A stretch of 64,000 bases of DNA from Methylobacterium sp. CB376 (GTDB lineage: Bacteria; Pseudomonadota; Alphaproteobacteria; Rhizobiales; Beijerinckiaceae). The notes below the pieces were generated by a model. The model worked only from the letters and a program-made list of their open reading frames with translations, was not told the DNA's origin and made no database searches. A program made the translations under genes and the position numbers. Of the stretch, positions 41,119 to 62,438 are shown piece by piece. Location of the stretch: NCBI RefSeq assembly GCF_029714205.1, contig NZ_CP121648.1, positions 6,326,501 to 6,390,500 on the forward strand, read 5' to 3'. Position 1 is the first letter of the stretch. Each line of letters opens with the position of its first letter.

Positions 41119-42681
41119 ATGACGACGCTGATGGAACGGGTGCTCGGCCGCGTGCTGGCGGCTCTGCCGCTGGCCGGGCCGCTGACGGTGCTGGGCACGG
41201 ACGGGCGGCGCCTCACGGCCGGGCCCCGGGACGGTCCGCCGGTCCGCGTGCGGCTCCGCGACCCGTCGGCGGCGCGCCGCCTCCTCCTCGATCCCGACCT
41301 CGCCTTCGGCGAACTCTACGTGGAGGGCGGCCTCGTTCTCGAGGAGGGGACGCTGCCCGACCTGATGCGCGTGCTCCTCGCCCGCAGCCGCGGCGAGGTG
41401 CCGCTGCCCTCCGCGACCGCGATGGCGCTGCTGCGCCGCCTCGGCCGGCGGCTCGGCCGGCGCAACACGCCGCGGCGGGCCCGCCGCAACGTCGCCCACC
41501 ATTACGCGCTCGACGAGCGCCTCTACGGGCTCTTCCTCGACCCGACGTGGCAGTATTCCTGCGCCTACTTCACGGCGGAGGAGGACGACCTCGCGGCCGC
41601 GCAGCGGGCCAAGATGCGCCACATCGCCGCCAAGCTCCTGGCCGGGCCCGGGCAGCGGGTCCTCGACATCGGCTGCGGCTGGGGCGGCCTCGCGCTCTAC
41701 CTCGCCGGGGTCGCGGGCTGCGCGGAGGTGCGGGGCATCACGCTGGCGGAGGGGCAGCTCGCCCGGGCGCGGGCGCAGGCGCAGGCGCGCGGCCTCTCCG
41801 CCCGCGCGCACTTCGCCCTGGAGGATTTCCGCCGGGCGTCGGGCAGCTTCGACCGGATCGTCTCGGTCGGCATGTTCGAACATGTCGGGCCGGCCGATTA
41901 CCCCGGCTTCTTCCGCCTCGTCCGGGAGCGCCTGGCGCCGGACGGGGTGATGCTCCTGCACACGATCGGGCGCACGGGGGCGCCCTACCCGACGAATGCC
42001 TGGATCACCCGCTACATCTTCCCGGGCGGCCACCTGCCGACCCTGTCCCAGATCACGCCGGCGATCGAGCGCTCGGGCCTGATCGTCACGGACGTGGAGG
42101 TGCTGCGCCTGCACTACGCCCGCACGCTGGCCGCGTGGCGCGCCCGCTTCGCCGCGAGGCGGGAGGCGGCGCGCGCGCTCTACGACGAGCGCTTCTGCCG
42201 GATGTGGGACTGGTACCTCGCGGCCTCCGAGGCGGCCTTCCGGTACGAGGACCTGGTGGTGTTCCAGATCCAGCTCGCGCGGCGCAACGACGTGGTGCCG
42301 CTCACGCGGGACTACGTCGCCCGGGAGGAGGCCCGGCTGCGCGCGCGGGAGGAGCGGCGGGGCCGCGGAGCGCTCCCCTCACGGCCGGGTCAGCACGTCG
42401 CTGAGCGTCAGCGCGAACAGCACCCCCGCCCACAGGAACCCGGCCAGGGCGGCGAGGCGCACGAGGCCGCGCGCCTCCCGCAATTCCATGTAGAAGACCA
42501 GCACCAGGAGCGCCTTCGCGGCCGCGATGGCGAAGCCGATCGCCGCCGTCGCCGCCCCGAGCTTCCAGAAGGCCGCCGCGCAGGTCAGCGCCAGGAGGCC
42601 GAGCAGGGCCGCCCAGATCGCGAGGTTGCGCAGCCAGAGGGAGCGGACCGTCGCGCTCATCCGGACCGCCCCGGCAGGTAG
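41119..42681 (+). CDS. cfa: Cyclopropane-fatty-acyl-phospholipid synthase with aberrant C-terminal extension
   Basis: The enzyme adds a methylene group from S-adenosylmethionine to unsaturated membrane lipid chains. The substrate-binding region reads AFGELYVEGGLVLEEGTL and the AdoMet fold VLDIGCGWGGLALYL near residue 181. Other hallmarks are NVAHHYALDERLYGLFLDP, WQYSCAYF (active-site Cys), GMFEHVG and FPGGHLPTLS. The family part ends near residue 415 (about 42360). The frame then continues for roughly 105 Gln/Arg/Glu-rich residues that lie entirely antisense to the cytochrome oxidase subunit IV gene. Another frame would stop at 42404 after a one-base shift in the CGGCGGGGCC run, so the native stop was probably lost by an indel or mutation. 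The core annotation is secure. Confidence 0.88.
   Translation: MTTLMERVLGRVLAALPLAGPLTVLGTDGRRLTAGPRDGPPVRVRLRDPSAARRLLLDPDLAFGELYVEGGLVLEEGTLPDLMRVLLARSRGEVPLPSATAMALLRRLGRRLGRRNTPRRARRNVAHHYALDERLYGLFLDPTWQYSCAYFTAEEDDLAAAQRAKMRHIAAKLLAGPGQRVLDIGCGWGGLALYLAGVAGCAEVRGITLAEGQLARARAQAQARGLSARAHFALEDFRRASGSFDRIVSVGMFEHVGPADYPGFFRLVRERLAPDGVMLLHTIGRTGAPYPTNAWITRYIFPGGHLPTLSQITPAIERSGLIVTDVEVLRLHYARTLAAWRARFAARREAARALYDERFCRMWDWYLAASEAAFRYEDLVVFQIQLARRNDVVPLTRDYVAREEARLRAREERRGRGALPSRPGQHVAERQREQHPRPQEPGQGGEAHEAARLPQFHVEDQHQERLRGRDGEADRRRRRPELPEGRRAGQRQEAEQGRPDREVAQPEGADRRAHPDRPGR
42379..42660 (-). CDS. ctaF: Cytochrome c oxidase subunit IV (CtaF-like)
   Basis: This 93-residue small membrane subunit of the caa3 oxidase has three hydrophobic helices (LAIWAALLGLLALTCAAAFW; AIGFAIAAAKALLVLVFYM; LVRLAALAGFLWAGVLFALT). 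The block AAKALLVLVFYMELRE is typical of prokaryotic subunit IV. Its ATG overlaps the ctaE stop (ATGA), making it the last gene of the respiratory operon. It is overlapped antisense by the extended cfa frame. Confidence 0.85.
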   Translation of the reverse strand: MSATVRSLWLRNLAIWAALLGLLALTCAAAFWKLGAATAAIGFAIAAAKALLVLVFYMELREARGLVRLAALAGFLWAGVLFALTLSDVLTRP

Positions 42682-43334
42682 AAGACCGGGTAGAGGACGA
42701 TCCAGACGACGTCGACGAGGTGCCAGTAGAGGGCCGTCACCTCGACCTCGGGGCTGCCGCGCAGCTCCAGCCGGCCGCGCCAGCCGAGGAGCGCGAGCCG
42801 CCCGACCAGCGCGATCCCGACCGACAGGTGCAAAGCGTGCACCCCCGTCATCAGCCAGTAGAGGGCGAAGAAGATCTGGGCCGGCGCCGCCGCGAGCGGG
42901 AAGTGCGGCCCGGGCACCAGGCTCTTCTCGATGTCCTCGCGGTACTCGACCCCCTTCACCGCCACGAAGGCGAGGCCGAGCGCGGCCGTCACGGCGAGGC
43001 AGGCGACCACGAGGCGGCGCAGGTCCTCCTCGGCCTTGGCGGCCTGGGAGGCCACCGCCATGGTCAGGCTGCTGGTGAGCAGGATCGCCGTGTTGGCGGT
43101 GCCGAGGGCGAGGTTGGTCTCGCGGCCCGCCGCCGCGAAGGCCTCCGGGTGGGCGATCCGCATCACCGCGTAGGTGAGGAGCAGCGCCCCGAAGAACAGC
43201 GTCTCGCTCGCCAGGAAGAGCCAGATCCCGAAGGTCGCCCCGCGCCGCTGGCGCCCGAGATCGGACCAGGGCTCGCGGATCAGCCGCGCGGCCGGCTCGC
43301 CCCCGGCGACGCCCCCCTCGGCCGCGCCGCTCAC
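42657..43334 (-). CDS. ctaE: Cytochrome c oxidase subunit III
   Basis: This 225-residue subunit has about five helices, as in the short form of subunit III. Hallmarks are FGIWLFLASETLFFGALLLTY near the N-terminus, TANTAILLTSSLTMAVA, and YWHLVDVVWIVLYPVFYL at the end. GTG 43334 overlaps the ctaD stop as GTGA, and the ctaE stop overlaps the ctaF start. These overlaps suggest tight translational coupling. Confidence 0.92.
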   Translation of the reverse strand: MSGAAEGGVAGGEPAARLIREPWSDLGRQRRGATFGIWLFLASETLFFGALLLTYAVMRIAHPEAFAAAGRETNLALGTANTAILLTSSLTMAVASQAAKAEEDLRRLVVACLAVTAALGLAFVAVKGVEYREDIEKSLVPGPHFPLAAAPAQIFFALYWLMTGVHALHLSVGIALVGRLALLGWRGRLELRGSPEVEVTALYWHLVDVVWIVLYPVFYLPGRSG

Positions 43335-45007
43335 GGCAGGAGCTCCTGCTCGCGCTGGTAGCTCGGCGGGCCGATCGTCGCCGAGTGGCCCTCCGGATGG
43401 TAGTCGTAGGGCGCGCGCACCACCCGCGGCTGCCGGACGAAGTTCTTGTGCGGCGGCGGCGAGGTCGTGCTCCATTCGAGGCCGGTCGCGTCCCAGGGGT
43501 TGCTCGACGCCCGCGCCCCGTAGACCAGCGACCAGGTCAGGTAGGCGAGCGGCAGCAGGTAGGCCGCCGCCAGGATCGCCGCGCCCGACGACGACATCAC
43601 GTTGTAGATCTGGAATTCCGGCGGATAGGTGTGGTAGCGCCGCGGCATCCCGAGATAGCCGGCGATGAATTGCGGCGCGAAGGTCAGGTTGAACCCGAAA
43701 TACATCAGGATGGCGGCGAACCGGGCCCAGGATTCCGGGTACATCTTTCCCGTCACCTTCGGCCACCAGAAGTGCAGACCGCCGAAGAAGGCCGAGACCG
43801 AGCCGCCCACCATGATGTAGTGGAAGTGCGCGACCACGAAGTAGGTGTCCGTGACGTGGACGTCGACCGGGATGGCGGCGAGGAAGAGCCCCGACAGGCC
43901 GCCGGTCGTGAACAGCCCGACGAAGCCGAGCGCGTAGAGCATCGGCGCGCCGAACCCGATCTGCCCGCGGTAGAGCGAGAAGATCCAGTTGAAGACCTTG
44001 ATGGCGGACGGCACCGCGATGATGAAGGACAAGAACGAGAAGATCAGGGCCGCGTAGGGCGACATGCCCGACACGAACATGTGGTGACCCCAGACGAAGA
44101 AGCCGATCCCGGCGATCGCCAGGATGGCGTAGACCATGAACGTGTAGCCGAAGATGCGGCGGCGCGCGAAGGCCGGAATGATCTCCGAGACCACCCCCAT
44201 CGCCGGCAGCACCATGATGTAGACGGCCGGGTGCGAGTAGAACCAGAACAGGTGCTGGAACAGGATCGGGTCGCCGCCGCGGTTCGGGTCGAAGATCGGC
44301 AGGCCGAGCCAGCGCTCGGCCATGACGAGGAGCAGCGAGATCGCCAGGACCGGCGTCGCCAGCACGATCACGATGCTGGTGGCGTAGATCGACCAGACGA
44401 AGAGCGGCAGGCGGAACCACGTCATGCCGGGACAGCGCAGCATGTGCACGCTGGCGATGATGTTGACGCCGGTGGCGATGGTGGAGAAGCCGACCAGGAA
44501 CACGCCGAGCGCCGCCGCGAAGACGTGCGTGTTCGAGAACATCGTCGAGAAGGGCGTGTAGAAGGTCCAGCCGGTATCGACCCCGCCGGCGATCAGCGCG
44601 TAGACCGTGCAGGCCCCGGCCGCCACCGTGAGGTACCAGCTGAACAGGTTGAGCCGCGGGAAGGCGAGGTCCGACGCCCCGATCATCAGCGGCACCAGGA
44701 AGAGGCCGAGCGTGTTGGGGATGGAGGGCACCAGGAAGAACCACACCATCACGATGCCGTGGAACGAGAACAGCTTGTTGTAGGTGTCCGAGGTGAGGAG
44801 GTGGCCCTCCGGCGAGACGAGTTCGAGGCGCACCAGGGTGATCGCCGCGCCGCCCATGAAGAAGAACACGGTGATCACGACCGCGAACAGGATCGCGAGG
44901 CGCTTGTGGTCGGTGGTGGTGAGCCAGGACCCGACCGAGCGGCTGAACCGCAGGTAGTCCGGCTCGGTCGGCAGCGGCAATTCGCCGAGCGCCGCGGACT
45001 CGCTCAT
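43331..45007 (-). CDS. ctaD: Haem-copper oxidase subunit I, A2 type
   Basis: This 558-residue catalytic subunit reduces O2 to water and pumps protons. Haem and CuB ligands are visible in FSFHGIVMVWFF, WFYSHPAVYIMVLP, GHHMFVSG and DTYFVVAHFHYIMVGG. At the end of the D-channel the usual glutamate (HPEVY) is replaced: the sequence reads YSHPAVY near residue 259. Tyr-Ser before HP is the signature of A2-type oxidases such as the Rhodothermus caa3 enzyme. ATG 45007 overlaps the ctaC stop as ATGA. It works with the CtaC subunit, which carries its own haem c. Confidence 0.94.
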   Translation of the reverse strand: MSESAALGELPLPTEPDYLRFSRSVGSWLTTTDHKRLAILFAVVITVFFFMGGAAITLVRLELVSPEGHLLTSDTYNKLFSFHGIVMVWFFLVPSIPNTLGLFLVPLMIGASDLAFPRLNLFSWYLTVAAGACTVYALIAGGVDTGWTFYTPFSTMFSNTHVFAAALGVFLVGFSTIATGVNIIASVHMLRCPGMTWFRLPLFVWSIYATSIVIVLATPVLAISLLLVMAERWLGLPIFDPNRGGDPILFQHLFWFYSHPAVYIMVLPAMGVVSEIIPAFARRRIFGYTFMVYAILAIAGIGFFVWGHHMFVSGMSPYAALIFSFLSFIIAVPSAIKVFNWIFSLYRGQIGFGAPMLYALGFVGLFTTGGLSGLFLAAIPVDVHVTDTYFVVAHFHYIMVGGSVSAFFGGLHFWWPKVTGKMYPESWARFAAILMYFGFNLTFAPQFIAGYLGMPRRYHTYPPEFQIYNVMSSSGAAILAAAYLLPLAYLTWSLVYGARASSNPWDATGLEWSTTSPPPHKNFVRQPRVVRAPYDYHPEGHSATIGPPSYQREQELLP

Positions 45008-45936
45008 GACCGGTCCTCCTTCGCGAGGGAGCGGATGTAGGCGACGAGGCTCTGGATCTCCCCCTCCGAGAGCCGGCCGGCGAAGCTCGGCATGATCGGC
45101 GCGAAGCCGGCCACCACGTCCTTGTTCGGCTGCAGGATCGAGTCGCGCAGATAGGCCTCGTCGGCCGCGACCACGCGCCCGTCCGCCAGCGCCACGGTGC
45201 GGCCGTAGAGGCCGGCGAGGCTCGGCGCGTGCACCCGGGCGGAGGCGGCGTGGCAGCCCGAGCAGCCGCGCTCCACGAACAGCGCCGCGCCCGCCTTGGC
45301 GAGGTCGTCGCCCTCCGGCTGGGCGGCGAGCCACGCCGCGTAGGCGTCCGGCCGCATCACCACGATCTTGCCGCGCATGCGGGAATGGTCGGTGCCGCAA
45401 TACTCGGCGCAGAGGAGGTGGAACACCCCGAGCTTGGTGGCCTCGAACCACGCCACGTGGGTCTGGCCCGGCACCACGTCCTGCTTGAGCCGGAAGGCCG
45501 GCACGAAGAAGGAGTGGATCACGTCCTGCGAGCGCATCTCGAGGCGCACCGGCACGCCGATCGGCACGTGCAGCGCGTCGATCTCGCGGGCGCCGTTGGC
45601 GTGCAGCGCCTTCCACATCCACTGCTTGGCGACGACCTGCACCTCGATCGCGTCCCCGGGCGGCGTGAAGGACCTGATCTCGATCGAGGTGCCCCACCAG
45701 AACAGGAAGACGAACAGGAACAGGGTCGCGCTGGTCCAGCCGATCTCGAATTCGCGGCTCACCACCTCGGGCATCGGCCCGCGCGGGGCGGCGGAGCCGC
45801 GCCGGTAGCGGACCGAGAAGCCGAGGAGCAGGCAGACGACGAGGAGCAGGATCGCGCCCGACAGGACGAGCAGGCCGGCGAAGATCGCGTCGATGCGCTG
45901 CGCGAGGGTCGAGGCGGTCTCGGGCCAGAAGGCCAT
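45004..45936 (-). CDS. ctaC: caa3 oxidase subunit II with fused cytochrome c domain
   Basis: This 310-residue subunit takes electrons from ActE or soluble cytochrome c. Two N-terminal helices precede the cupredoxin domain. The CuA site is CAEYCGTDHSRM near residue 179, and QWMWKA marks the conserved aromatic patch. A cytochrome c domain follows with CSGCH near residue 225 and an axial Met in IMPSFAGRL. The fused haem c makes this a caa3-type enzyme. The SCO gene stop and the ctaC ATG share one base. Confidence 0.93.
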   Translation of the reverse strand: MAFWPETASTLAQRIDAIFAGLLVLSGAILLLVVCLLLGFSVRYRRGSAAPRGPMPEVVSREFEIGWTSATLFLFVFLFWWGTSIEIRSFTPPGDAIEVQVVAKQWMWKALHANGAREIDALHVPIGVPVRLEMRSQDVIHSFFVPAFRLKQDVVPGQTHVAWFEATKLGVFHLLCAEYCGTDHSRMRGKIVVMRPDAYAAWLAAQPEGDDLAKAGAALFVERGCSGCHAASARVHAPSLAGLYGRTVALADGRVVAADEAYLRDSILQPNKDVVAGFAPIMPSFAGRLSEGEIQSLVAYIRSLAKEDRS

Positions 45937-46721
45937 CACGGAACCCTCCGGGCCGGCCCGCCGCCGCGGCCGAGCCGCCACAGGGCCAGACCCAGCCCGG
46001 CCACCGTCAGCGCTCCGGCGAGCGTGAGGAGCCGCGAGATCGCGGGCGTGTAGATCCCCCGCGCCGCGTCGAAGCCGTAGCACAGCACCGCGAGCCGCCC
46101 CGCGACGCCCCCGATCGCCCCGCGCCCGGCCTCCAGCAGCGCGAGGCGCAGGCTCGGCCCGTCGAGGGCGAGGGTCGAGAGGGCGCGGGCGAGGTGTCCG
46201 TCCAGCGTCAGGGCGAGGGCGGCGGACGGGTGGGCGTACTGGTCGTGCTCGGCATCGTAGGCGGTGCGGTAGCCCAGCGAGCGGGTGAGGTCCGCGAGGG
46301 CGGCCGGGTCGGCGCGCAGGAGCACCGTCGCCGCGCGCAGGGCCGGATCGGCCACCTGCGCGCCGAGGAGCGCCCGGCCCTCGGCGAGGCCGTCCTTCGG
46401 GTCGAGGCCGAGCACGATCAGCCGGTAATCGGCGCCCGGCCGCAGCCCCGTCTCGCCGAGCGCGCCCGCCACCACGGCCAAGGCCGGCCCGCACAGGGTG
46501 CGGCAGGTGAAGTCGACCGGGACGAGGAGCGCCGGGCGGCCCCCGAGCGCCTCCCCGAGGGCGAGGGAGCGGCCGCTCTCGTCCGTGACGCGGGCGCCGA
46601 GGGGCAGGCGGGCGCCGGCCGGCGGCGCGAGGCCCGCCGCCGCGAGCTCGGAGGCGGCGAGGCCCGCCCGGGCGGCGCAGGGCGCGAGCGCGATCAGCAG
46701 GGCGAGGAGGAGGCGCGTCAC
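45936..46721 (-). CDS. SCO1/SenC-family copper chaperone
   Basis: The 261-residue protein inserts copper into the CuA site of subunit II. The copper motif is FTCRTLCGPAL (CxxxC) and the distant histidine is in DQYAHPSAAL. A signal peptide (RLLLALLIALAPCAARAG) leads it to the periplasm, and a C-terminal helix (LLTLAGALTVAGLGLALW) anchors it. GTG 46721 overlaps the upstream stop as GTGA. The position directly before ctaC fits this role. Confidence 0.88.
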   Translation of the reverse strand: MTRLLLALLIALAPCAARAGLAASELAAAGLAPPAGARLPLGARVTDESGRSLALGEALGGRPALLVPVDFTCRTLCGPALAVVAGALGETGLRPGADYRLIVLGLDPKDGLAEGRALLGAQVADPALRAATVLLRADPAALADLTRSLGYRTAYDAEHDQYAHPSAALALTLDGHLARALSTLALDGPSLRLALLEAGRGAIGGVAGRLAVLCYGFDAARGIYTPAISRLLTLAGALTVAGLGLALWRLGRGGGPARRVP

Positions 46722-47059
46722 GGCCGCCGGCTCTCCTTGATCGGGCCGGGCGCCGCCGCCGGGGCGCCGACCGGGTCGAGGGCCGCGGCGCCCCGGCCCG
46801 CGAGGATCTCCATGGCGCGCGCGACCGGGATCCGGACGATGCCGCGCTCCCGGTCGACCCAGGCATAGCCGGACAGGGCCTCGCCCTGCGCGTCGAGGAG
46901 GCGCTTGAGGTCGCCGGCCGGGTCGATCTGCAGGCCGGGCTGCGGCATCGCCCGCGGCGGCGGCCGCTCGCGCCGCGGGGCGCCGCGGTCGTAGGAGAGC
47001 TTGAGCCCGCCCATGGCGGCGGCGACGAAGAGCGCGAAGCCCGCGACGGCGGCGAGCAC
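46718..47059 (-). CDS. Small membrane-anchored protein of the ACIII-oxidase operon
   Basis: This 113-residue protein has an N-terminal helix (LAAVAGFALFVAAAMGGLKL) and a soluble domain with LQIDPAGDLKRLLDAQGEAL, YAWVDRERGIVRIPVARAME and a proline-rich end. The pattern WVDR..GIVRIPI..AM is seen in small proteins encoded next to SCO genes in similar clusters. No ligand residues are obvious. The only in-frame start after the actF stop is GTG 47059. It may help assembly of the caa3 oxidase; this is inferred from position. Confidence 0.75.
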   Translation of the reverse strand: MLAAVAGFALFVAAAMGGLKLSYDRGAPRRERPPPRAMPQPGLQIDPAGDLKRLLDAQGEALSGYAWVDRERGIVRIPVARAMEILAGRGAAALDPVGAPAAAPGPIKESRRP

Positions 47060-47113
47060 CGTCCGGACCGGGACGCCCGGGGCCTCCGGGGGGCGGGGAT
47101 CTCCGGGGAGGCG

Positions 47114-48103
47114 TCAGCCGGCATGGCCGAGCCCTCCGGGCAGGCGGCGCGCCGGGAACAGGCGGGCCAGGAGGCGCCCCGAGAGGCGCACGAGGCCGAC
47201 CGTGACCGCGACGGCGGCGAGGAGGCCGAGCGCGCCCAGGAGGAGGGGCGGGCCGGGCGGGTCGTAGGCCGGCGCGACGAGCCAGAGCCGGTGCAGGCCG
47301 ATCCCGAGGAGCACGAGCCCGCCCACCAGGCGCAGGGCGGCGCGGCTGCGCCGCAGGTGCCCGTTCAGCAGCAGCCCGAAGGGGAGGACCGCGCCGGCCG
47401 CGACGGCGGCGACGATGAGCCAGACGAGACCGTGCTGGCCGCGGCGCAGGTACCAGGCGGCCTTGTCGGGCAGGTCGCCGTACCACGCCACGATGAAGGA
47501 CATCAGCGCGATGTAGACGGTGCCGGTCAGGGTGGCGAGGAGCAGGCCGGCGAGGTCGCTGGCGTCGCGCCCCGCGAGGTCCGGCGGCGCCAGCAGGGCC
47601 GCGAAGGCGAGGGCGGAGAGCATCTGCTCGATGGCGAAGCCCGCTGCGAAGGCCGAGGAGGTGAAGCCGGGCTCGACGGAGAGCACCCAATCGACCGCGA
47701 TCACGCTGATCAGGACCGCGTGCAGCAGGAGCGCCACGGCCGCGAACAGGCCGCCGCCCCGTCCCGCCGCGACCACGAGGCCGATCACCGACCAGATCAC
47801 CAGGGCGAGGACCGAGCGGGCGAGGAAGAAGGTCGGGTGCAGGTAGAGGGGAGCGACCTGCGGCGGGGCCTGCGCCGGATCGGCCGCCCACGGATAGATC
47901 GCCGCGAGGCCGAGCGCGATCGGCAGGAAGGCCAGGGCCGCGAGCGGGGTGAGCGAGGCGGCCGGGCGCAGCACGGGGGCGAGCGCCTCGCCCCAGCGCC
48001 CGCCGGTGAGGCCGTGGATCAGGAGCAGCGCGAGGCTGCCGATCGGGATGCCGCTCCAGGCGGCGTAGGCGGCGAGCCAGCCGCGGGCGGCCTGCGCGAT
48101 CAC
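47114..48103 (-). CDS. actF: Alternative complex III subunit ActF (membrane)
   Basis: This 329-residue, roughly ten-helix protein is related to ActC/NrfD and is one of two large membrane subunits of the quinol:cytochrome c oxidoreductase. Recognisable blocks are AYPWAADP-type loop IYPWAADPAQAPPQ, YLHPTFFLARSV, SVIAVDWVLSVEPGFTSSAF and YGDLPDKAAWYLRR. GTG 48103 overlaps the actE stop as GTGA. The order actA-B-C-D-E-F is complete here. Confidence 0.88.
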   Translation of the reverse strand: MIAQAARGWLAAYAAWSGIPIGSLALLLIHGLTGGRWGEALAPVLRPAASLTPLAALAFLPIALGLAAIYPWAADPAQAPPQVAPLYLHPTFFLARSVLALVIWSVIGLVVAAGRGGGLFAAVALLLHAVLISVIAVDWVLSVEPGFTSSAFAAGFAIEQMLSALAFAALLAPPDLAGRDASDLAGLLLATLTGTVYIALMSFIVAWYGDLPDKAAWYLRRGQHGLVWLIVAAVAAGAVLPFGLLLNGHLRRSRAALRLVGGLVLLGIGLHRLWLVAPAYDPPGPPLLLGALGLLAAVAVTVGLVRLSGRLLARLFPARRLPGGLGHAG

Positions 48104-50553: not shown

Positions 50554-53393
50554 GAGCCGTCTCCCGGCAGGTCGGGGGCGGGGTTGCGCAGGTCCGCCAG
50601 GTAGGTGGTGCGCGGGCGCGTCCCGAGATGGCCGAGCAGCGCGTAGTGGCGCGGCTCCGCCCTCAGGCGGGCGACGTCGGACCCCGCCTCGGCGAGGTCG
50701 CCGAAGGCGATCGCCCGGCTCGGGCAGGCATCCTGGCAGGCGGTGGTGACCTCGCCCGGCCCGAGCGGGCGCCCGTCCCGCTCCGCGGCGCGGCGCGCGC
50801 CGCTGATCCGCTGGATGCAGTAGGTGCACTTCTCCATCACGCCGCGCTGGCGGACCGTCACCTCCGGGTTGCGCTGGGCCGGCAGCGGATCGAGGCCGAG
50901 ATTGGCGTATTCCTGGCCGTCCGCGTAGCCGAGGAAGTTGAAGCGGCGCACCTTGTAGGGGCAGTTGGCCTCGCAGAAGCGGGTGCCGATGCAGCGGTTG
51001 TAGACCTGGAGGTTCAGGCCCTCGCCGTCGTGGACCGAGGCCGCGACCGGGCAGACCGGCTCGCAGGGCGCGTGCTCGCAATGCATGCAGGGCACGGGCT
51101 GGAAGCCCGGACGGGGATGGTCCGGCCCGCCGCGATCGTAGGTGTCGACGCGCAGCCAGTGCATCAGCCGCCCGCGCGCGACCTCCTCCGGCCCCACCAC
51201 CGGCACGTTGTTCTCGGTCTGGCAGGCGACCACGCAGGCGTTGCAGCCGATGCAGAGCGAGGCGTCGATCACCATGGCCCAGGCGTGGCCGTCCGCGTCG
51301 CCCGTCCAGGGCGCGATCAGGCTCGGATGGGGGCCGGGATCGGTCCCGGGCGCCTCGCCGATGGCGGTTCGGCCCTCGGCCAGGGCGGCGAGCGTCAGGA
51401 GCGGGTAGTTCTCCCGCGCCTCCCGCTCGCGCACCACGCGCTGGGTCGTCAGGATCCCGGGATGCTGCCCGGTCGGGGCGAGGGCGACGCCGTCGACGCG
51501 CCAGAGGGCGTCCTCGCGGCGCAGCGCGTAGGCGCTGGCGCCGATGCCGTTGCCGATGGCGCCGGCCCGGGAGCGGCCGTGGCCGAGGGTCAGGCTCGCC
51601 ACGCCCGCCGCGTGGCCCGGCACGGTCGCGACCGGCACCTCGATGCTGCGCCCGCCGGCGGCGACGCGGACGAGGTCGCCCTGGGCGAGGCCGCGCCGGG
51701 CCGCCTCGTCGGGGGCGAGGGCGAGGGCGTTGCCCCAGACCTGCTTGGTCAGGGGCGCCGGGCATTCCTGCAGCCAGGCATTGTTGGCCATGCGCCCGTC
51801 CCAGGTCCCGGGATCGGGCCGCAGCACCAGGGTGAGGTCCTGCGCGGCGGCGGGCGGCCCGGGATCGGGCAGGCGCGGGCTGCCGGTCGCCACCGGCGCG
51901 GCGGCGCTGTCCTGCACCACGCCCTCGTGCAGGGCGCGCCGCCACCATTCCTCGAACCCGGCCTCGCGCCCCGGCCTCCAGGTCTCGCGCACGAGGTCGT
52001 AGGACGCGGCGTCGCCCTCGCCGAGGAGGGCGCAGACGACCTCCTCGGCCGTGCGGGTGGCGTAGAGGGGGCGGATCAGGGGCTGCACCAGCGAGGCGGT
52101 GCCGTCGACGGCCCGCAGGTCGCCCCAGGCCTCGAGCGGGTGGGTCTCGGGCACGTGCCAGGTGGCGAGCACGGCCGTCTCGTCCACGGCGGGGCCGAGA
52201 TGGAGCCGGAACGGGGCCCGGCCCAGCCTCTCCGCGAGGGCGAGGTCGGCGGGCGCGTCGTAGACCGGGTTGACCCCGAGCATCACGAGGTCCTGCACGC
52301 CGCCCGCCGCGAGGTCGCGGGCGAGGTCGGAGAGCGTGCCGGGCGCCCGGCCGCCGATCAGGTCCGGCGGCTCGATCCAGTCGAGGGGCGCGCCGAGCAC
52401 GCCGTTGATCCAGTGCGCGAGGGCGTGGATCTCGGGCGGCAGGGTCGGCCCGGCGAGGACGAGGGCGGCGCCGCGGCGCGCGCGCAGGTCCTGCGCGGCC
52501 CGCGCCGCGAGGCGGGCGGCCTCCTCCGGCAGGGTCGGCGCGCGCAGGTCCGCCCCGAGGGCGCGGGCCAGCGCCACCGCCACCTCACCGATCCGGTGCG
52601 GCGGCAGGGCGAGGCGGTGGTCGGCCTTGGCGCCGGTCAGGGTCGGCGCCGCCTCGACCGCGTAGAGCCGCGAGAAGCCCTCGCCCGCCGCCGGGACGCG
52701 GCGGCTGCCGAAGCCGCGGCCGTTGCGGATCTGGTCGGGACCCGGGCCGAGCGGGTCGGCGTCGAGGCTGACGATCACGGCGGCGCGGTCGAGATGCGGC
52801 ACGGGCCAGAGCGGGCGGCCGAAGGCGAGGGCGGCGCCGGCCCGGGCGGAGGCGTCCTCGGTCGGCTCGTGCGCGTGCCAGGCCGCCCGCGGATAGGCGT
52901 CGAGCAGGCGGGCGATCTGGCGCTGGAGCGTCGGCGAGGTCACCCGGCCGGTGAGCAGCCGCATCCCCTCGCCGCGCGTCTCCCGCCAGGCCGCGACCTT
53001 GGCGACGAGCGCCCGCTGCAGCGCGCTCCAGGTGCCGATGTCGCCGCCCTGGCGCAGGGTCTTCGAGCGGTCGGGATCGTAGAGGGACAGCACCGCCGCC
53101 TCGGCGAAGACGTCCGTCGCCCCGAGGCTCCCCGGGTGGCGCGGGTTGCCCTCGACCTTGATCGGGCGACCGTCCACGGAGCGCACCCGGCAGCCGCGGC
53201 CGTAGCCGGCGAGCGGCAGGGTGCTGGCGAAGACGAGCGGCACGCCCCCGGTGACCCGCTCGGGCTGGACCACGTAGGGGACGATCTCCTCGTCCGGCTT
53301 GGCGCAGGCGCCGGCCGCCAGCGTGATGCCGGCCGCGAAGGCCCGCAGCGCCTCGCGGCGCGAGACCGTCCGGGGCCCGCTCAGCGGTGGCAT
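50550..53393 (-). CDS. actB: Alternative complex III subunit ActB (molybdopterin-like and iron-sulfur fusion)
   Basis: This 947-residue periplasmic subunit starts with a twin-arginine-like signal (SRREALRAFAAGITLAAGAC). The first part resembles molybdopterin oxidoreductases (VEGNPRHPGSLGATDVF) but lacks the cofactor and N-terminal cluster cysteines, as is normal for ActB. The last part (about residues 715-900) holds four cubane-type cysteine groups: CIGCNACVVAC, CMHCEHAPCEPVC, CIGTRFCEANCPYK and CTYCIQRI with CQDACPS. It wires ActC to ActA. Its ATG lies inside the actA 3' end (13-base overlap). Confidence 0.93.
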   Translation of the reverse strand: MPPLSGPRTVSRREALRAFAAGITLAAGACAKPDEEIVPYVVQPERVTGGVPLVFASTLPLAGYGRGCRVRSVDGRPIKVEGNPRHPGSLGATDVFAEAAVLSLYDPDRSKTLRQGGDIGTWSALQRALVAKVAAWRETRGEGMRLLTGRVTSPTLQRQIARLLDAYPRAAWHAHEPTEDASARAGAALAFGRPLWPVPHLDRAAVIVSLDADPLGPGPDQIRNGRGFGSRRVPAAGEGFSRLYAVEAAPTLTGAKADHRLALPPHRIGEVAVALARALGADLRAPTLPEEAARLAARAAQDLRARRGAALVLAGPTLPPEIHALAHWINGVLGAPLDWIEPPDLIGGRAPGTLSDLARDLAAGGVQDLVMLGVNPVYDAPADLALAERLGRAPFRLHLGPAVDETAVLATWHVPETHPLEAWGDLRAVDGTASLVQPLIRPLYATRTAEEVVCALLGEGDAASYDLVRETWRPGREAGFEEWWRRALHEGVVQDSAAAPVATGSPRLPDPGPPAAAQDLTLVLRPDPGTWDGRMANNAWLQECPAPLTKQVWGNALALAPDEAARRGLAQGDLVRVAAGGRSIEVPVATVPGHAAGVASLTLGHGRSRAGAIGNGIGASAYALRREDALWRVDGVALAPTGQHPGILTTQRVVREREARENYPLLTLAALAEGRTAIGEAPGTDPGPHPSLIAPWTGDADGHAWAMVIDASLCIGCNACVVACQTENNVPVVGPEEVARGRLMHWLRVDTYDRGGPDHPRPGFQPVPCMHCEHAPCEPVCPVAASVHDGEGLNLQVYNRCIGTRFCEANCPYKVRRFNFLGYADGQEYANLGLDPLPAQRNPEVTVRQRGVMEKCTYCIQRISGARRAAERDGRPLGPGEVTTACQDACPSRAIAFGDLAEAGSDVARLRAEPRHYALLGHLGTRPRTTYLADLRNPAPDLPGDGS

Positions 53394-54037
53394 ATCGAGC
53401 ACTCGCTGAGGCGGTCGGCGGACCGGATGTGGTAGGCCGCCCTCAGCGCCCTGCCGCGGGTCTCCTGGTCGGGGGGAGGGGTCCAGGCCATGTCGTAGAC
53501 CTCCTCGCGGGGGCGGAGATTCGGCTCGGGGTTGCGGTGGCAGTCGAGGCACCAGCTCATCGTGAGCGGGGCGGCCTGGCGCATCAGCGGCATGCCCTGG
53601 ACGGCGCCGTGGCAGGTCGAGCAGCCGACGCCCTTGGCGACGTGCACGCTGTGGTCGAAGTAGACGTAGTCCGGCAGGGTGTGGACGCGCCGCCAGCGGA
53701 TCGGCGTGCCGGTGGCGAGGCTCGCCCGCACCGGCGCCAGCATCTCGGCATTGGTCCAGATCTGCGAGTGGCAGGACATGCAGGTGTGGGTCGGGGGGAG
53801 GCCGGCGAAGCGGGCCTTCTCCACGGAGGTGTGGCAGTAGCGGCAGGCGATCCCGAGCCCGCCGACATGGTGCTGGTGGCTGAAGGGCACCGGCTGCGCG
53901 CGGACCACGTTCTGCCCGGTGGCGTAGGGCGCGGCCCAGAGCCGGTAGGTCAGCCCGACCGCCAGCACCGGGGCCGCGGCCATCCCGGCCATCACCAGGC
54001 GGATGATCGTGTCGGCGCCGGGACGGAAGATCTGCAC
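53381..54037 (-). CDS. actA: Alternative complex III subunit ActA (pentahaem cytochrome c)
   Basis: This 218-residue protein has one N-terminal helix (LVMAGMAAAPVLAVGLTY) and five haem c sites: CRYCH, CMSCH, CSTCH, CLDCH and CSICH. PFSHQHHVGGLG and YFDHSVHV supply further axial histidines. It takes electrons from ActB and passes them to ActE. GTG 54037 is the best start; only two bases separate it from the stop of the NrfD-like gene upstream, so the FDH and ACIII genes are one operon. Confidence 0.92.
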   Translation of the reverse strand: MQIFRPGADTIIRLVMAGMAAAPVLAVGLTYRLWAAPYATGQNVVRAQPVPFSHQHHVGGLGIACRYCHTSVEKARFAGLPPTHTCMSCHSQIWTNAEMLAPVRASLATGTPIRWRRVHTLPDYVYFDHSVHVAKGVGCSTCHGAVQGMPLMRQAAPLTMSWCLDCHRNPEPNLRPREEVYDMAWTPPPDQETRGRALRAAYHIRSADRLSECSICHR

Positions 54038-54039
54038 GG

Positions 54040-55197
54040 TCAGGCGGAGCGTCGGAGCGGGACGGACCGGTGAGCGGCGCGGAGGCGGCCGGTGCGCGGC
54101 GGCGGGCCATGTTCGGGGGAGCTCTCGGGCGAGGTCTCGGGCAAATTCTCGGGCGAACTCTCGGGCAAATTCTCGGGCTGCGCGAAGCGGAAGCTGACAT
54201 CCGGCCGCGCCGCGGATTTGTCGCCCGCTCCCATCACGGAGATGCGCAGCAGCGCGCTGCCGGCCAGCACCGCGAGGCCCGCCGCCACGGACAGCTCCGC
54301 GGGCGGCCGCCGCCCGCGGGCGCGCATCGCGCGCTCGGCCGCGTAGAGCCCGAGCGGCAGCAGCACGCCCAGGCCGACGGCGCCGACCTTCTCGGCCGTC
54401 CCGGCCCGCCCGCGCGTGGCGGGCTCGACCCCCGTCCGCCGATAGGCGAGCGCCGCGGCCGCGTCCCCGGCGAGCTCGACCGCGAGCGCCGCGGCCGCGA
54501 TGCCGTGCAGCGCGTCCCGCTGCGGCCCGGCGGGCTCGGCCATCGCCAGGGCCGCCGCCCCCGACGCCACCGAGGAAGCGCCGAAGCGCACTGCCAGCGC
54601 GCGGGGTGCCGCCGCCCAGAGCGGCGTCGAGGTCGCCGAGAGGAGGGCGGCCGTGTAGGTCGACAACCCCGCCCCGAGCAGGGCCGCCGGCACGCCCGCC
54701 GCGCGGGCGGCCCCCCGCATGGTCCTCGGGGCGATCCCGAGATCGGCGGCGACCTGCGCCGCGGCGCTCACGCCCGCGCAGGCGGAGAAGCCCATCAGGA
54801 TCCAGGTCCCGATCGACATCGGCGAGGTGGCCTTGGCCACCCGCAGCATGTTGTAGAAGCGGCTCGGGGTGTGCAGGTCGTAGATCAGGAGCGCGCTGCC
54901 GAGGGTCGGCGCGAGCAGGGCCGTGTAGCGGGCGCGGCGGATCATCGGGCCGGCCTCGACGCCCCGGGTCGCCTCGGCGAGGGCCGCCAGGATCGCCGAG
55001 GAGCCCGAGAGGCCGGCGAGGAAGATGTAGCCGCCCACCACCGCGTTCTCGAACGGCGCCGGCTTGAGCTGCGCGCGGCCGTAATAGGTCGGCCCCGCCC
55101 AGGCCTCCCCGGGTTCCGGCCGGCGCGCGCCCGAGGCGCGGTCCGGGCGGGGGAGCGGGGCCTCGGGGCCGCGCGCGACGACGGGATATTCGGCCAT
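54040..55197 (-). CDS. NrfD/PsrC-family membrane subunit of the formate dehydrogenase
   Basis: This 385-residue membrane protein is the likely quinone-reducing anchor of the formate dehydrogenase. Family blocks are TYYGRAQLKPAPFENAVVGG, YIFLAGLSGSSAILAALAEA, LLIYDLHTPSRFYNMLRVAK and SPMSIGTWILMGFSACAG. The last 40 residues form a hydrophilic tail with repeats (ENLPESSP, ENLPETSP) encoded by 12-base units. ATG 55197 shares one base with the stop of the iron-sulfur subunit gene. It replaces the di-haem cytochrome b of FDH-N-type enzymes, so the electron route to quinone differs from E. coli. Confidence 0.85.
   Translation of the reverse strand: MAEYPVVARGPEAPLPRPDRASGARRPEPGEAWAGPTYYGRAQLKPAPFENAVVGGYIFLAGLSGSSAILAALAEATRGVEAGPMIRRARYTALLAPTLGSALLIYDLHTPSRFYNMLRVAKATSPMSIGTWILMGFSACAGVSAAAQVAADLGIAPRTMRGAARAAGVPAALLGAGLSTYTAALLSATSTPLWAAAPRALAVRFGASSVASGAAALAMAEPAGPQRDALHGIAAAALAVELAGDAAAALAYRRTGVEPATRGRAGTAEKVGAVGLGVLLPLGLYAAERAMRARGRRPPAELSVAAGLAVLAGSALLRISVMGAGDKSAARPDVSFRFAQPENLPESSPENLPETSPESSPEHGPPPRTGRLRAAHRSVPLRRSA
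54118..54180 (-). repeat. 12-base tandem repeat encoding a Glu/Pro/Ser tail
   Basis: Five units of 12 bases built on CTCGGGC alternate between GAACT/GAGGT and AAATT forms. They encode the ENLPE(S/T)SP tail of the NrfD-like subunit. Confidence 0.75.
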
Positions 55198-56159: not shown

Positions 56160-56169
56160 CGGCCGGCCC

Positions 56170-56388
56170 TCAGATCCGCTCCAGCCGCTCGGCGCGGTGG
56201 GCGATCAGGTTGCGGGTCCGCGCGTAGCGCACCCGCACCCGGGCCTGCTCGGCCTGGAGCCGGGCGAGGTCGTCGGGCTCCGCCCCCGCCATCGGCCCCA
56301 GCACGAAGAGGTGCGCGATCCCCTCGTCGTCGACGAGCTGGAACCGGGTCTCCTGCGCGATGGTGACGACGCCTCGCATCGACGGCAT
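56170..56388 (-). CDS. Small conserved-looking protein, first gene of the FDH-ACIII-oxidase operon
   Basis: This 72-residue protein starts near ATG 56388 and ends 10 bases before the FDH beta gene. It reads GVVTIAQETRFQLVDDEGIA, HLFVLGPMAGAEPDDLARLQ, then a basic helix. It is soluble, with no metal motif. Its place as first gene of the operon suggests a role in FDH maturation or regulation, but I cannot name the family. Confidence 0.65.
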   Translation of the reverse strand: MPSMRGVVTIAQETRFQLVDDEGIAHLFVLGPMAGAEPDDLARLQAEQARVRVRYARTRNLIAHRAERLERI

Positions 56389-56682
56389 GGGATCCCTCGT
56401 CCGCGCAGAGCGCCCGCTCGCGCCGCTTCCGCGCCGCCAACGCCGGGGGACCGGGTTGGTTCAGCGGCGTCCCTCGGCTGCGTCCCGGCCGGCTGCTCCC
56501 GCGGTCACATAACGCCCCCGGGCGGCGCCTCCAGGCGCCGGGCCGGCCGCGCTCGGTCCGGCAGCGTACGAAGCCGGGCGCCGGGCCGCCGGCGCGCGCC
56601 GCGCCGCCGGAACCATGACGCATGGTCGGGATTGGAGCGCTGGGACGGGTCGCGATCGGCCCCCTGGACGGGAGTGGCGGCC
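56389..56682. other. Divergent promoter region of the formate respiration locus
   Basis: About 294 bases separate the fifteen-gene minus-strand operon from the plus-strand selenocysteine formate dehydrogenase gene. No gene fits here. I see no clear sigma-54 box or long inverted repeat. GGGAG lies just before the fdnG start. A single region driving both directions would coordinate the three FDH subunits. Confidence 0.5.
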
Positions 56683-59600
56683 ATGGCGCGGCGGATCGGC
56701 AAGGGGATCGGCAAGGGCATTGGCAAGGGGATCGGCGAGCGGGTCACCGGCTTCCTGCGCGACTGGTCGATCCCGCGGCAGCTCGCGGGCGAGAGCGTGA
56801 TGGGGCGCGCCGCCCGCAGCACGATGTCGGAGCGCCTGCGGCCGCGCCTGGAGGAGGCCGACCGGGTCGGCACCAGCATCTGCCCGTTCTGCGCCGTCGG
56901 CTGCGGCCAGCTCATCTACGCCAGGAACGGCCGCCCGATCCACGTCGAGGGCGACCCGCGCTCGCCGATCAATGCCGGGACGCTGTGCCCCAAGGGCGCC
57001 GGCACGCTCGGCATGCTGCTCTCGCCCGAGCGGATCAGCCGCGTCCTCTACCGGGCGCCGCGCGCGCGGCACTGGGAGGTCAAGCCGCTGGACTGGGCGA
57101 TGGAGCGCATCGCGCAGCTCACCAAGCAGGCCCGCGACGAGACCTTCGCCGAGCGGCTGCCGGACGGGCGCGTCGTCAACCACACGCTCGGCATCGGGTC
57201 GCTCGGCGGCGCGACCATGGACAATGAAGAGAACTACCTGATCAAGAAGCTCTTCGGCGGCGGGCTCGGCATCGTCAACATCGAGAACCAAGCCAGGATC
57301 TGACACTCCGCCTCGGTGCCCAGTCTGGGTACCTCCTTCGGACGCGGCGCCGCCACGATGGCGCTGTGGGACCTCGCGAACGCGGACTGCATCATCGAGA
57401 TGGGGTCCAACATCGCGGAGAACCACCCGATCGCCTTCCGCTTCGTCACCGAGGCGCAGCGCAAGGGCGCGACCATCATCCACGTCGATCCGCGCTACAC
57501 CCGCACCAGCGCGCTCGCGGACATCTACGCGCCGCTGCGCTCGGGCAGCGACATCGCCTTCCTGGGCGGGATGATCCGCTACATCCTGGAGCACGACCTG
57601 TGGTTCCGGGACTTCGCGCTCGCCTACACGAACCTCGCCCACATCATCGAGGACGGCTACCAGGACCCGGAGACCCTCGACGGCCTGTTCTCGGGCTTCG
57701 ACCGCAGCTCCGCCGCCTACGAGGACGGGACCTGGCAATACGCGGGCAAGCGGGTGCCCTCCTCGGTGGCCGAGCACCGGGTGCAGACGAAGGAGGGCGA
57801 CCCGGGGGAGGGCAGCCCCTACGAGAGCATGACCGAGGGGCCGCCGCCGCGGGACCCGACGCTGCAGCACCCAAACTGCGTCTACCAGATCCTGAAGCGG
57901 CACTACGCCCGCTACACGCCCGAGATGGTCGAGCGGGTGACCGGCTGCCCGCGGGAGACGTTCGTGCGGGTGGTCGAGACCTTCGCGCGCAATTCCGGGC
58001 GCGAGCGCACCGGCGCCTTCACGTACGCGGTCGGCTGGACCCACCACACCACCGGCGTGCAGATCATCCGCGCCGCCTCGATCGTCCAGATGCTGCTCGG
58101 CAATATCGGGCGCCCGGGCGGGGGCATCATGGCGCTGCGCGGCCACGTCAGCATCCAGGGCTCGACCGACATCCCGACCCTCTACAACATGCTGCCGACC
58201 TACCTGCCGCAGCCCAACGTCTTCCACGAGCACGCGACGCTGGCCGACTACCTGCGGGTCGAGACCCCGACCACGGGCTGGTGGGCGAACATGCCCAAAT
58301 ACGTGATCAGCCTGCTGAAGGCGTGGTACGGCGAGGCCGCCACGCCGGCGAGCGACTACGGCTACCAGTTCCTGCCCAAGCTCACGGGCGACGCCTCCCA
58401 GGAGCCGATGACGCTCTCGATGGTCGACGGCATGATGCGCGGCCAGTTCATCCTCGGCCAGAACCCCCTGGTCGGCGCCGTCAACGCGGACCTCGTCGAG
58501 CGCGGCTTGTCGAAGCTGCGCTGGATGGTGGTGCGGGACTTCGCCATGACCGAGACGGCGAATTTCTGGCAGAAGGGCCGGCTGGTCGAGCGCGGGGACC
58601 TCAGCCCGGAGGAGATCGAGACCGAGGTGTTCTTCCTGCCCGCCGCCATGCCGGGCGAGAAGGAGGGCAGCGTCACCAACACGAGCCGCCTCGTGCAGTG
58701 GCACGACAAGGTCTGCGAGGCGCCGGGCGACAGCCGCTCGGACCTCTGGTTCATCTACCATCTCGGCCGGCGCCTGAAGGCGCTCTACGCCGACAGCACC
58801 GAGACCCGCGACGGGGCGATCCAGGCGCTCACCTGGGACTACCCGGTCGAGGGCGCGGTCGCCGAGCCGCGGGCGGAGGCGATCCTGGCCGAGATCAACG
58901 GCTACACGGTCGCCGACGGCAAGCCGGTGGCGAGCTACAAGGCGCTCAAGGACGACGGCTCCACCGCCTGCGGCGGCTGGATGTATTGCGGGATCATGCC
59001 GGAGGAGGGGCGCAACCTCGCCCGGGCGCGCCGGCCGGACGGGCCGGACGGGCCGGGCTCGCATCTCGGCTGGGCCTTCTCCTGGCCGTCGAACCGGCGC
59101 ACCCTCTACAACCGCGCCTCGGCCGACCCGGAGGGCCGGCCCTGGTCGGAGGCCAAGAAGATGGTCTGGTGGGACGAGGCGCAGGGACGATGGACCGGCC
59201 TCGACGTGCCCGACTTCGTCGAGACGAAGCGGCCGGACGAGCGTCCGGACTGGTCGAAGCACCCGCGCGGCATGGACGCGCTCGGCGGGGACGATCCCTT
59301 CATCATGGAGGCGGACGGCAAGTGCCAGGTCTTCGTGCCGACCGGCCTGAAGGACGGGCCGCTGCCGACCCATTACGAGCCGGTCGAGAGCCCGGTGCGC
59401 AACCCCCTCTACGGCCAGCAGATGAACCCGGCCGCGAAGCTCTGGGGGCGGCCCGGCAACGCGCTGCACGCCCCCCAGGACCCGCGCTTCCCCTACGTGT
59501 TCACCACCTTCCGGTTGACCGAACTCCATTGCGGGGGCGTGCCGACCCGGGTGATGCCGCACACGGCGGAATTGCAGCCCGAGGCCTTCGTGGAGGTCTC

Positions 59601-59919
59601 GCCGGAGCTCGCGGGCGAACTCGGCCTCCGCCATCTCGGCTGGACCGTGCTGTCGACCCTGCGCGGCGAGATCGAGGTGCGGGCGATGGTGACCGAGCGG
59701 ATCCGGCCCTTCCGGATCGACGGGCGGACGGTGCACGAGGTGGCGATGCCCTGGGTGTTCGGCCGCGAGGGCTACGCGCGCGGCGCGGTGGCGAACGTGC
59801 TCCTGGCGATCACGGGCGACCCGAACACCAGCATCCACACGACCAAGGCGCTGACCTGCAACCTGCGGCCGGGGCGCCTGACGCAGCTCAAGCGGGAGGC
59901 GCGCCGTGGCCCCGCATGA
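56683..59919 (+). CDS. fdnG: Selenocysteine formate dehydrogenase catalytic subunit
   Basis: This molybdo/tungsto-bis-MGD enzyme oxidises formate to CO2. The frame has one in-frame TGA (57301-57303, codon 207) in the context NQARI-U-HSASVPSLG, exactly where FdnG/FdoG proteins carry selenocysteine, and the frame then continues to 59919 (1,078 residues). The [4Fe-4S] site is CPFCAVGC (Cys67, 70, 74) with CPKGAG near residue 102. Further blocks are ECIIEMGSNIAENHP-type (DCIIEMGSNIAENHP), QNPLVGAVNADLV and TFRLTELHCGG. The start ATG 56683 follows GGAG. There is no twin-arginine signal; instead the N-terminus is a GKGI repeat (three 12-base units). The partner subunits are encoded divergently. Decoding needs SelA, B, C and D, not in this window. 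Confidence 0.93.
57304..57345 (+). promoter_or_regulatory. SECIS-like hairpin after the selenocysteine codon
   Basis: Eighteen bases after the TGA the loop AGTCT (57322-57326) is closed by CCC/GGG, with GGT(G) and (T)ACC extending the stem (57315-57333). The E. coli fdhF element has its loop GGUCU at the same 18-base distance from the UGA. The SelB-binding core is therefore present with one change, A for the first G. Confidence 0.75.
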
Positions 59920-60226
59920 ATACGGCCACGCGGCGCTCTCCGCCCTCGACGCGGTGCTGGCCGAGCGGCCGCGCAAGGACGATCACGGCCTGACCCACGC
60001 GATGCAGTGCCTGACGCGCTTCCGCGACGAGGTGATCGCGATCCAGCGCGAGGACCCGCCGTCGCGGGACCGGCGCGAGACCCTCTCGCGGCTGAACGCG
60101 GTGGTGGCGGTGGTGTTCGGGGCGCATTTCCCCTTGGGCACCGTGCCCTGGGCCGAGGTCGAGAAGGCGCGCGGCTGGCTCCGGGACCTGGTGCGGGAGT
60201 TCGAGGGCGAGGGCGCGGCGGGCTGA
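59906..60226 (+). CDS. Small soluble protein downstream of fdnG
   Basis: This 106-residue protein starts at GTG 59906 with GGGAGG six bases upstream and overlaps the fdnG 3' end by 14 bases, so translation is coupled. It is helical, with blocks YGHAALSALDAVLAERPRKD, LTRFRDEVIAIQRED and GAHFPLGTVPWAEVEKARGW. I do not know the family. Coupling to the catalytic subunit suggests a role in FDH maturation or stability. Confidence 0.7.
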   Translation: MAPHEYGHAALSALDAVLAERPRKDDHGLTHAMQCLTRFRDEVIAIQREDPPSRDRRETLSRLNAVVAVVFGAHFPLGTVPWAEVEKARGWLRDLVREFEGEGAAG

Positions 60227-60900: not shown

Positions 60901-60990
60901 CGTCGCTCCGTCCGGTCTGCATGAACGCGCAGGCCAAACGTCGGGAGCCGGCCCGATGTTGCCGGCTGCGACCGGAAGGACCGGCCGCCC

Positions 60991-61034
60991 GCTCAGGCGC
61001 TGTCCGGACGATCACGTCCGGACAGCGCCTGAGC
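60991..61034. repeat. Perfect 20-bp-stem palindrome with 4-base loop
   Basis: The arm GCTCAGGCGCTGTCCGGACG is followed by ATCA and its exact reverse complement. It lies between two minus-strand genes, 91 bases upstream of the cupredoxin-like gene start and directly joined to two dispersed repeat cores. It could work as a strong terminator for the gene transcribed from 62157 or as part of a mobile repeat. Confidence 0.85.
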
Positions 61035-61175: not shown

Positions 61176-61179
61176 CGGA

Positions 61180-62157: not shown

Positions 62158-62180
62158 GCGCGGCTCTCCGGTGCATGAAT

Positions 62181-62381: not shown

Positions 62382-62438
62382 CGGCACTCCCGGGCCGGGA
62401 TGTTCTCGCCCCCACCTCAACCCACGAGTTTTCGCCCG

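Follow-up and report, generated by a model that had tools for sequence, protein, structure and literature searches.

Selenocysteine formate dehydrogenase genes adjoining an alternative complex III and caa3 oxidase gene cluster in Methylobacterium: a probable two-module formate-respiration unit

The window analyzed here is a stretch of 64,000 nucleotides from Methylobacterium sp. CB376 (contig NZ_CP121648.1, positions 6,326,501 to 6,390,500). It carries genes for a selenocysteine (Sec) formate dehydrogenase (FDH) beside those for alternative complex III (ACIII) and a caa3-type oxygen reductase. The source genome has 2 contigs totaling 7.69 Mb, one of which accounts for 7.64 Mb. The host lies near Methylobacterium sp. 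WSM2598, which is the closest named genome by the membrane subunit FqoC (98%). Fifteen minus-strand genes run from 56388 to 42379 in the order that the initial annotation gave, namely sm72, fdhB, fqoC (NrfD-like), actABCDEF, sm113, a SCO-like gene, and ctaCDEF. The plus-strand pair fdhA and fdhSm is divergent from sm72, and its separation of 294 bp, also noted in the initial annotation, follows from the coordinates.

Gaps within the fifteen-gene string range from −13 to +94 bases. They are +10 for sm72/fdhB, −1 for fdhB/fqoC, +2 for fqoC/actA, −13 for actA/actB, −4 for actB/actC, −1 for actC/actD, +94 for actD/actE, −4 for actE/actF, +54 for actF/sm113, −4 for sm113/sco, −1 for sco/ctaC, and −4 for each of ctaC/ctaD, ctaD/ctaE, and ctaE/ctaF. 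The +94 and +54 values are sensitive to the choice of start codon. The actE frame is open for 37 codons further upstream, and the actD/actE gap may be smaller. The start of fdhA was set by homology, and its frame is also open further upstream. A gene finder based on GC by codon position also picked some antisense frames in this GC-rich region, and gene calls were settled by homology.

The catalytic (alpha) subunit of the FDH scores 1481.1 bits against NF041513 (cut-off 1400) and 952.2 bits against TIGR01553, the model for the alpha subunit of FDH-N (cut-off 814.2). Among solved proteins it is closest to the alpha chains of Sec-FDH and FDH-N. The iron-sulfur (beta) subunit has TIGR01582 as its best family, below the cut-off (175.8 vs 334.7 bits), and matches 1kqf_B at E 1e-44. 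FqoC matches PF03916, and the FqoC alignment has eight hydropathy peaks; a profile of it had 0 matches among PDB sequences. This gene set, FdnGH-like subunits with an NrfD-like protein of eight transmembrane (TM) segments, fits FqoABC, a formate:quinone oxidoreductase with an NrfD-like anchor that was proposed in 2021 (Calisto and Pereira; PMC8076601). The likeness is one of subunit make-up. No signal for twin-arginine translocation (Tat), with the twin arginines and a hydrophobic core, was seen by eye in 26 alpha N-termini, the window’s included, and the alpha subunit is therefore probably cytoplasmic, unlike that of FDH-N. In a positive-inside analysis the mean net charge beside the beta helix is +2.0 before it and +1.2 after it, which is weak support for an inward-facing iron-sulfur domain. 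FDH-N was considered as an identity for the complex as a whole and rejected on the missing Tat signal and the NrfD anchor, yet the alpha subunit does pass TIGR01553.

The alpha subunit appears to be a selenoprotein. An in-frame TGA at 57301 occupies the catalytic position in the motif NQARI-U-H. The motif was located in 25 alphaproteobacterial loci; this codon is TGA in 24 of them and TGN in one. Other loci with the motif mostly have TGA as well, with TGC in two actinobacterial loci. A SECIS-like (selenocysteine insertion sequence) hairpin of 7 pairs begins 12 bases past the TGA in an alignment of 24 sequences. One pair is broken in 6 of these and another in 2, and there is no net covariation support. 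Genes for tRNA-Sec and selB adjoin each other elsewhere in the genome. The catalytic in-frame TGA, the SECIS-like hairpin, and selB with tRNA-Sec are all present, as expected for a selenoprotein.

A scan of genome contigs gave 79 FDH loci. The set used for counting consists of 30 alphaproteobacterial loci, made up of the 29 closest (L025–L053, alphaproteobacterial by title) and L022. The divergent arrangement of fdhA and sm72–fdhB–fqoC occurs in 23 of them. The other 7 are on cut contigs, are co-directional or rearranged, or have no fdhA within the stretch. The actinobacterial relatives found have the order fdhA-fdhB-fqoC. Two small genes accompany the alphaproteobacterial FDH. Beside it, sm72 is found in 27 of the 30 loci, and its family has 8 invariant residues across 23 aligned sequences; fdhSm is found with it in 24. 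Neither protein has a confident family in Pfam or NCBIfam.

The respiratory genes are readily assigned. ActA, ActB, ActC, and ActF match solved ACIII chains, ActD scores 173.6 bits against PF11821, and ActE is a mono-heme cytochrome c. ActF has no Pfam family despite its match to solved ActF chains. Five-heme ActA, ActB, the NrfD-like ActC with ActF, ActD, and mono-heme ActE make up the full set for ACIII. In the oxidase, CtaC is over the CoxB cut-off and carries a fused heme c, CtaD belongs to the COX1 family (659.4 bits, just below the TIGR02891 cut-off of 670.75), CtaE matches COX3, and CtaF is over the cut-off for caa3_sub_IV. COX1, COX2 with a fused cytochrome c, and caa3 subunit IV are those of a caa3 oxidase. 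As judged from their genes, both complexes are canonical. SCO is a tentative name taken from a CXXXC motif and the gene’s position; nothing relevant was found in Pfam at E ≤ 5 or in NCBIfam at E ≤ 0.01, and the sole PDB match is weak (E 0.012). No Pfam or NCBIfam family was found for sm113, which has matches at the same place in several relatives. Across Methylobacterium, ActD matches form two main score classes, at about 146-173 and about 96-131 bits. Some genomes have a member of each, and some further weak matches score below both. Two types of ACIII seem to circulate in the genus. The features are collected in Table 1.

Table 1. Coordinates of the features of the FDH–ACIII–caa3 locus, numbered from the first letter of the window.
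Feature	Position	Strand	Basis
fdhA/fqoA, Sec formate dehydrogenase catalytic subunit, 1078 aa	56683..59919	+	NF041513, TIGR01553, solved relatives
In-frame TGA read as Sec, SECIS-like hairpin just 3'	57301..57303	+	motif, hairpin alignment, selB/tRNA-Sec
fdhSm, 106-aa conserved protein, overlaps end of fdhA	59906..60226	+	occurrence beside FDH
Divergent intergenic region, 294 bp	56389..56682		coordinates
sm72, 72-aa conserved protein	56170..56388	-	occurrence beside FDH
fdhB/fqoB, iron-sulfur subunit, C-terminal TM helix	55197..56159	-	TIGR01582 match, 1kqf_B, hydropathy
fqoC, NrfD-like membrane subunit, 8 predicted TM segments	54040..55197	-	PF03916, hydropathy of alignment
actA, pentaheme cytochrome, 5 CXXCH	53381..54037	-	heme motifs, solved ACIII chain match
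actB	50550..53393	-	solved ACIII chains 8k9e, 6lod, 6f0k, 6btm
actC, NrfD-like subunit	49198..50553	-	family and solved ACIII chain match
actD	48680..49198	-	PF11821
actE, mono-heme cytochrome, true start possibly further upstream	48100..48585	-	family, heme motif
actF	47114..48103	-	solved ActF chains
sm113, small protein of ACIII-caa3 cluster	46718..47059	-	same-place match in several relatives
SCO-like protein, CXXXC	45936..46721	-	motif and position
ctaC, COX2 fused to cytochrome c (caa3 type)	45004..45936	-	CoxB, heme c motif
ctaD, COX1	43331..45007	-	COX1 family
ctaE, COX3	42657..43334	-	COX3 family
ctaF, caa3 oxidase subunit IV	42379..42660	-	caa3_sub_IV

The initial annotation held that fqoC and actA are cotranscribed. 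The two-base gap on which this relied is confirmed, and because it leaves no space between the genes, fdhB-fqoC and act-cta probably form one transcript with tied expression. A separate act promoter would have no room except inside fqoC. A consensus scan of the locus, which says little on the matter, found not one sigma-70-like promoter, and its 3 terminator-like sites compare with an expectation of 2.6. An Rfam scan gave 0 matches at gathering scores. Next to the actA junction, the 3' end of fqoC contains a 12/24-base tandem repeat (54113-54178). Most relatives have a shorter FqoC tail than the window, and a tail similar to the window’s occurs in JK268 (protein P0009). Judged from this extended tail, JK268 may also have the fqoC–actA junction.

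The initial annotation would have counted a lack of fdnH-nrfD-actA synteny in other genomes against its reading. Among the loci and genomes searched, the window’s own genome and WSM2598 alone have the exact two-base fqoC–actA junction. Wide conservation of the junction was rejected, and beyond the species the exact junction thus fails that check. The wider link passes it, since FDH and ACIII or oxidase genes do lie within 20 kb of each other in further lineages, in other arrangements. In Methylobacterium longum, strain 2A, and G345, fqoC is followed by about 13 kb and then actA. In Belnapia, actA lies about 1 kb behind fdhA–fdhSm, and in Paracraurococcus the FDH and act genes are convergent within 20 kb. 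In G447 (G447:C40:356562-374900; L223, L224), fdhA–fdhB–fqoC is followed by a co-directional ctaC–ctaD pair, just 33–37% like the window’s, with actA–F convergent. The G447 genes make up a formate-to-oxygen array of their own.

If the genes were placed uniformly in a 6-Mb genome, the two modules would be expected within 20 kb of each other in about 0.15 of 22 lineage units, and 4 were observed (p about 1e-5). This model is rough. Near kin were collapsed, units were counted by hand, and gene clustering and contig breaks were ignored; Paracraurococcus, which was outside the drawn samples, was left out, and the distances in G000 and G366 were entered as 0. Both genes are on one contig in just 6 of the 22 units, and the other 16 are not exactly scorable. 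A 64-row tree of actC, built mostly from best-matching loci after 7 duplicate rows were dropped, needs 6 changes of the linked state, at least 4 of them forced by supported branches. Linkage of FDH and ACIII is therefore concluded from the tree to have been gained or lost repeatedly.

A scar in a relative bears on the age of the junction. G346 is a Methylobacterium without an FqoC match. Of the ActC proteins from other species in the loci fetched, its own is the closest (88%). The twelve ACIII–caa3 genes of G346 match the window’s at 72–93%, with no stop within the aligned parts. Adjoining the upstream side of actA (G346:C7:6979100-6979610, L231) are pieces collinear with the order in the window. 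They comprise fragments from the 3' part of fqoC, a stub of the 5' end of sm72 together with some of the divergent region, and 64 bp that match the interior of fdhA. Since this scar keeps the window’s order beside open ACIII–caa3 genes, the FDH–ACIII junction is judged to have arisen before the window species did, and the FDH to have been deleted from G346 while the respiratory module was kept. On this evidence, the FDH was dispensable there. Another genome without FqoC, G359, has an actC near that of strain 2A; no FDH remnants were found at E ≤ 1e-5 in the 18 kb upstream of its actA.

The distribution of the two modules was also compared across genomes, in tests none of which removes kinship. 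ActD is present in 26 of the 29 genomes behind L025–L053, which were picked by closeness to the window’s FqoC. In a class sample, ActD is found in 5 of 289 genomes, the window’s own included. FqoC has matches in 3 genomes of that sample, one of them weak (34%), and both proteins occur together in the own genome only. Among 200 Acetobacteraceae, ActD is over the cut-off in 14 of the 18 FqoC-matching genomes (one a fragment) vs 27 of the 182 others (Fisher 5e-8). Within Methylobacterium, the high-scoring type of ActD is found in 9 of the 11 genomes with FqoC vs 22 of 100 others (p 1.4e-4), by hand counts and with a split at 145 bits that was picked after the scores were seen. Beyond the FDH in the window, the minus strand at 60430-63374 carries genes for a cupredoxin-like protein, a rubrerythrin/VIT-like protein, and a 397-aa protein without a Pfam family. 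Among the FDH loci compared, this group was matched only in WSM2598.

The locus is best explained as a Methylobacterium formate-respiration unit of two pre-existing modules, coupled via the quinone pool and probably co-transcribed. The probability of this reading is put at about three in four. In the first module, the Sec alpha subunit would oxidize formate, probably in the cytoplasm, and the iron-sulfur beta subunit would relay electrons to the NrfD-like FqoC, where quinone would be reduced. Quinone would then diffuse between the modules. In the second module, ACIII would oxidize the quinol, and electrons would go via ActA/ActE and the heme c of CtaC to oxygen at the caa3 oxidase. With the second module directly behind fdhB-fqoC, the membrane half of the FDH and ACIII-caa3 probably form one regulatory unit, with formate as the presumed physiological trigger. 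Methylotrophs form formate as an intermediate, which makes it an obvious substrate for such a unit.

Several findings weigh against this reading. In M. longum, 9 stretches of the fqoC–actA interval were scanned, and the 7 with a family are mostly sugar-nucleotide and glycosyl genes; a role for the interval genes in formate metabolism was rejected on these families. The 11 Methylobacterium genomes with FqoC have the modules within 20 kb in 5, far apart in 2 (110 kb in G329 and 1.07 Mb in G419), and on different contigs in 4. The 14 Acetobacteraceae with both modules have them on one contig in only 2, both near, and on different contigs in 12. G093 has FqoC and no ActD match. Many Methylobacterium have ACIII but not this FDH, with ActD over the cut-off in 85 of 111 genomes and FqoC in 11. 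Plain co-occurrence in the genus reaches only Fisher 0.045 and was rejected as strong evidence. Co-retention is not obligate, as the loss of FDH beside a maintained ACIII–caa3 in G346 demonstrates. The genome also encodes a bc1-type cytochrome b. It has ten matches to the molybdoenzyme Fe4S4 domain, the window’s fdhA included, and four of the others, typed from cut pieces, comprise one FDH alpha over the cut-off, two FDH-like proteins below it, and one NapA. With a bc1-type cytochrome b and at least one other FDH alpha, the unit is one of several routes, and neither module is the only route.

The initial annotation had suggested that the FDH may join an ACIII-caa3 supercomplex, giving a formate oxidase unit. 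In such a supercomplex FqoABC would be physically bound and quinone or electrons channeled inside. Supercomplexes of ACIII with caa3 and with aa3 oxidases have been reported in other bacteria (PMC5928083), and the linkage of FDH and ACIII genes does recur. No bridging subunit was recognized in the locus, however, and none of this binding is needed, as FqoABC has a full quinone-reductase subunit set and would require no contact with ACIII. Many FDH genomes have the modules at a distance from each other or on separate contigs. The G346 scar, with ACIII-caa3 genes still open after the FDH was lost, favors modular coupling over an obligate formate supercomplex. A bound supercomplex is thus quite improbable. 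Its most elaborate form is very doubtful; this is a formate:oxygen megacomplex of Sec FqoABC docked on ACIII-caa3, arisen repeatedly in methylotrophic and acetic-acid-family bacteria, with sm72 and fdhSm as factors for FDH assembly or docking.

It is also unlikely that the juxtaposition in this species arose by chance rearrangement and has no functional meaning. Restriction of the exact junction to the window species and, as a scar, G346 would suit such an accident, as would the distance, or the unrelated genes, between the modules in other Methylobacterium. The excess of close units over the rough expectation given above speaks against it, and a single inherited accident would hardly account for arrangements that differ. 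An FDH working in reverse as a redox-balancing CO2 reductase, with ACIII and oxidase as unrelated neighbors, appears extremely improbable. FDHs of this superfamily can run in both directions, but quinol-driven CO2 reduction is uphill without reverse proton flow, and recurrent linkage to oxygen-respiring genes fits oxidation. The two-module unit coupled by diffusing quinone remains the preferred reading.

An uncharacterized FDH with an NrfD anchor, of the Fqo kind proposed in 2021, is thereby placed in aerobic methylotrophs that can be cultured, together with a likely partner. The tentatively assigned Fqo activity can now be put to the test. The recurrent and variously arranged linkage suggests that these bacteria may pair formate electrons with ACIII in preference to bc1. 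The G346 scar offers a natural experiment, having the same oxidase module with the FDH lost. Overall, known modules occur here in a new and recurrent combination, which points to teamwork; that they form one physical machine would be a further supposition.

Escherichia coli FDH-N (FdnGHI) has a related Sec alpha subunit and iron-sulfur beta subunit (1kqf). It differs from the window’s FDH, in which no Tat signal was seen and an 8-TM NrfD-like protein replaces the four-helix heme b gamma subunit. The membrane FDH of Rhodococcus equi also has a beta subunit with one TM helix and an NrfD anchor (PMC13332983). Its alpha subunit has no confident signal peptide, the predictors disagreeing. That bacterium is of a different phylum, and no link to ACIII is given in the available parts of the paper. 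For FqoABC, the formate:quinone activity is tentatively assigned, and the groups given, as far as the paper was available, are Actinobacteria, Chlorobi, Crenarchaeota, Chloroflexi, and Deltaproteobacteria, with Alphaproteobacteria not among them (PMC8076601). The window’s FDH family would be an alphaproteobacterial branch of FqoABC. Unlike FqoABC, it has a divergent fdhA and two extra small conserved genes, and it is joined to an ACIII-caa3 operon.

On the side of ACIII, SAR324 genomes have been assigned both an NrfD-linked FDH and ACIII (PMC4782131), and a route for electrons from formate to ACIII is not itself a new idea. SAR324 is a different bacterial group, and no linkage of FDH and ACIII genes is stated in the accessible parts of that paper. 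A description of such linkage was not found in the literature searched, which consisted mostly of titles, abstracts, and passages, with subscription journals mostly outside it. The cytochrome c oxidase (COX) operon of type a-I with a Nrf-like/Act cluster resembles the window in having ACIII attached to the COX operon and a cytochrome c–COX2 fusion (PMC4013037), whereas the words “formate dehydrogenase” are absent from that paper’s main text. The ACIII-caa3 cluster of Rhodothermus marinus, a species with an ACIII-caa3 supercomplex, likewise combines actABCDEF and a caa3 oxidase (PMC5928083), and each of the six core ACIII subunits was identified in the window. In Methylobacterium sp. CB376 this arrangement is known from genes, and it differs from that of R. 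marinus in being preceded, without a gap, by genes for an FDH.

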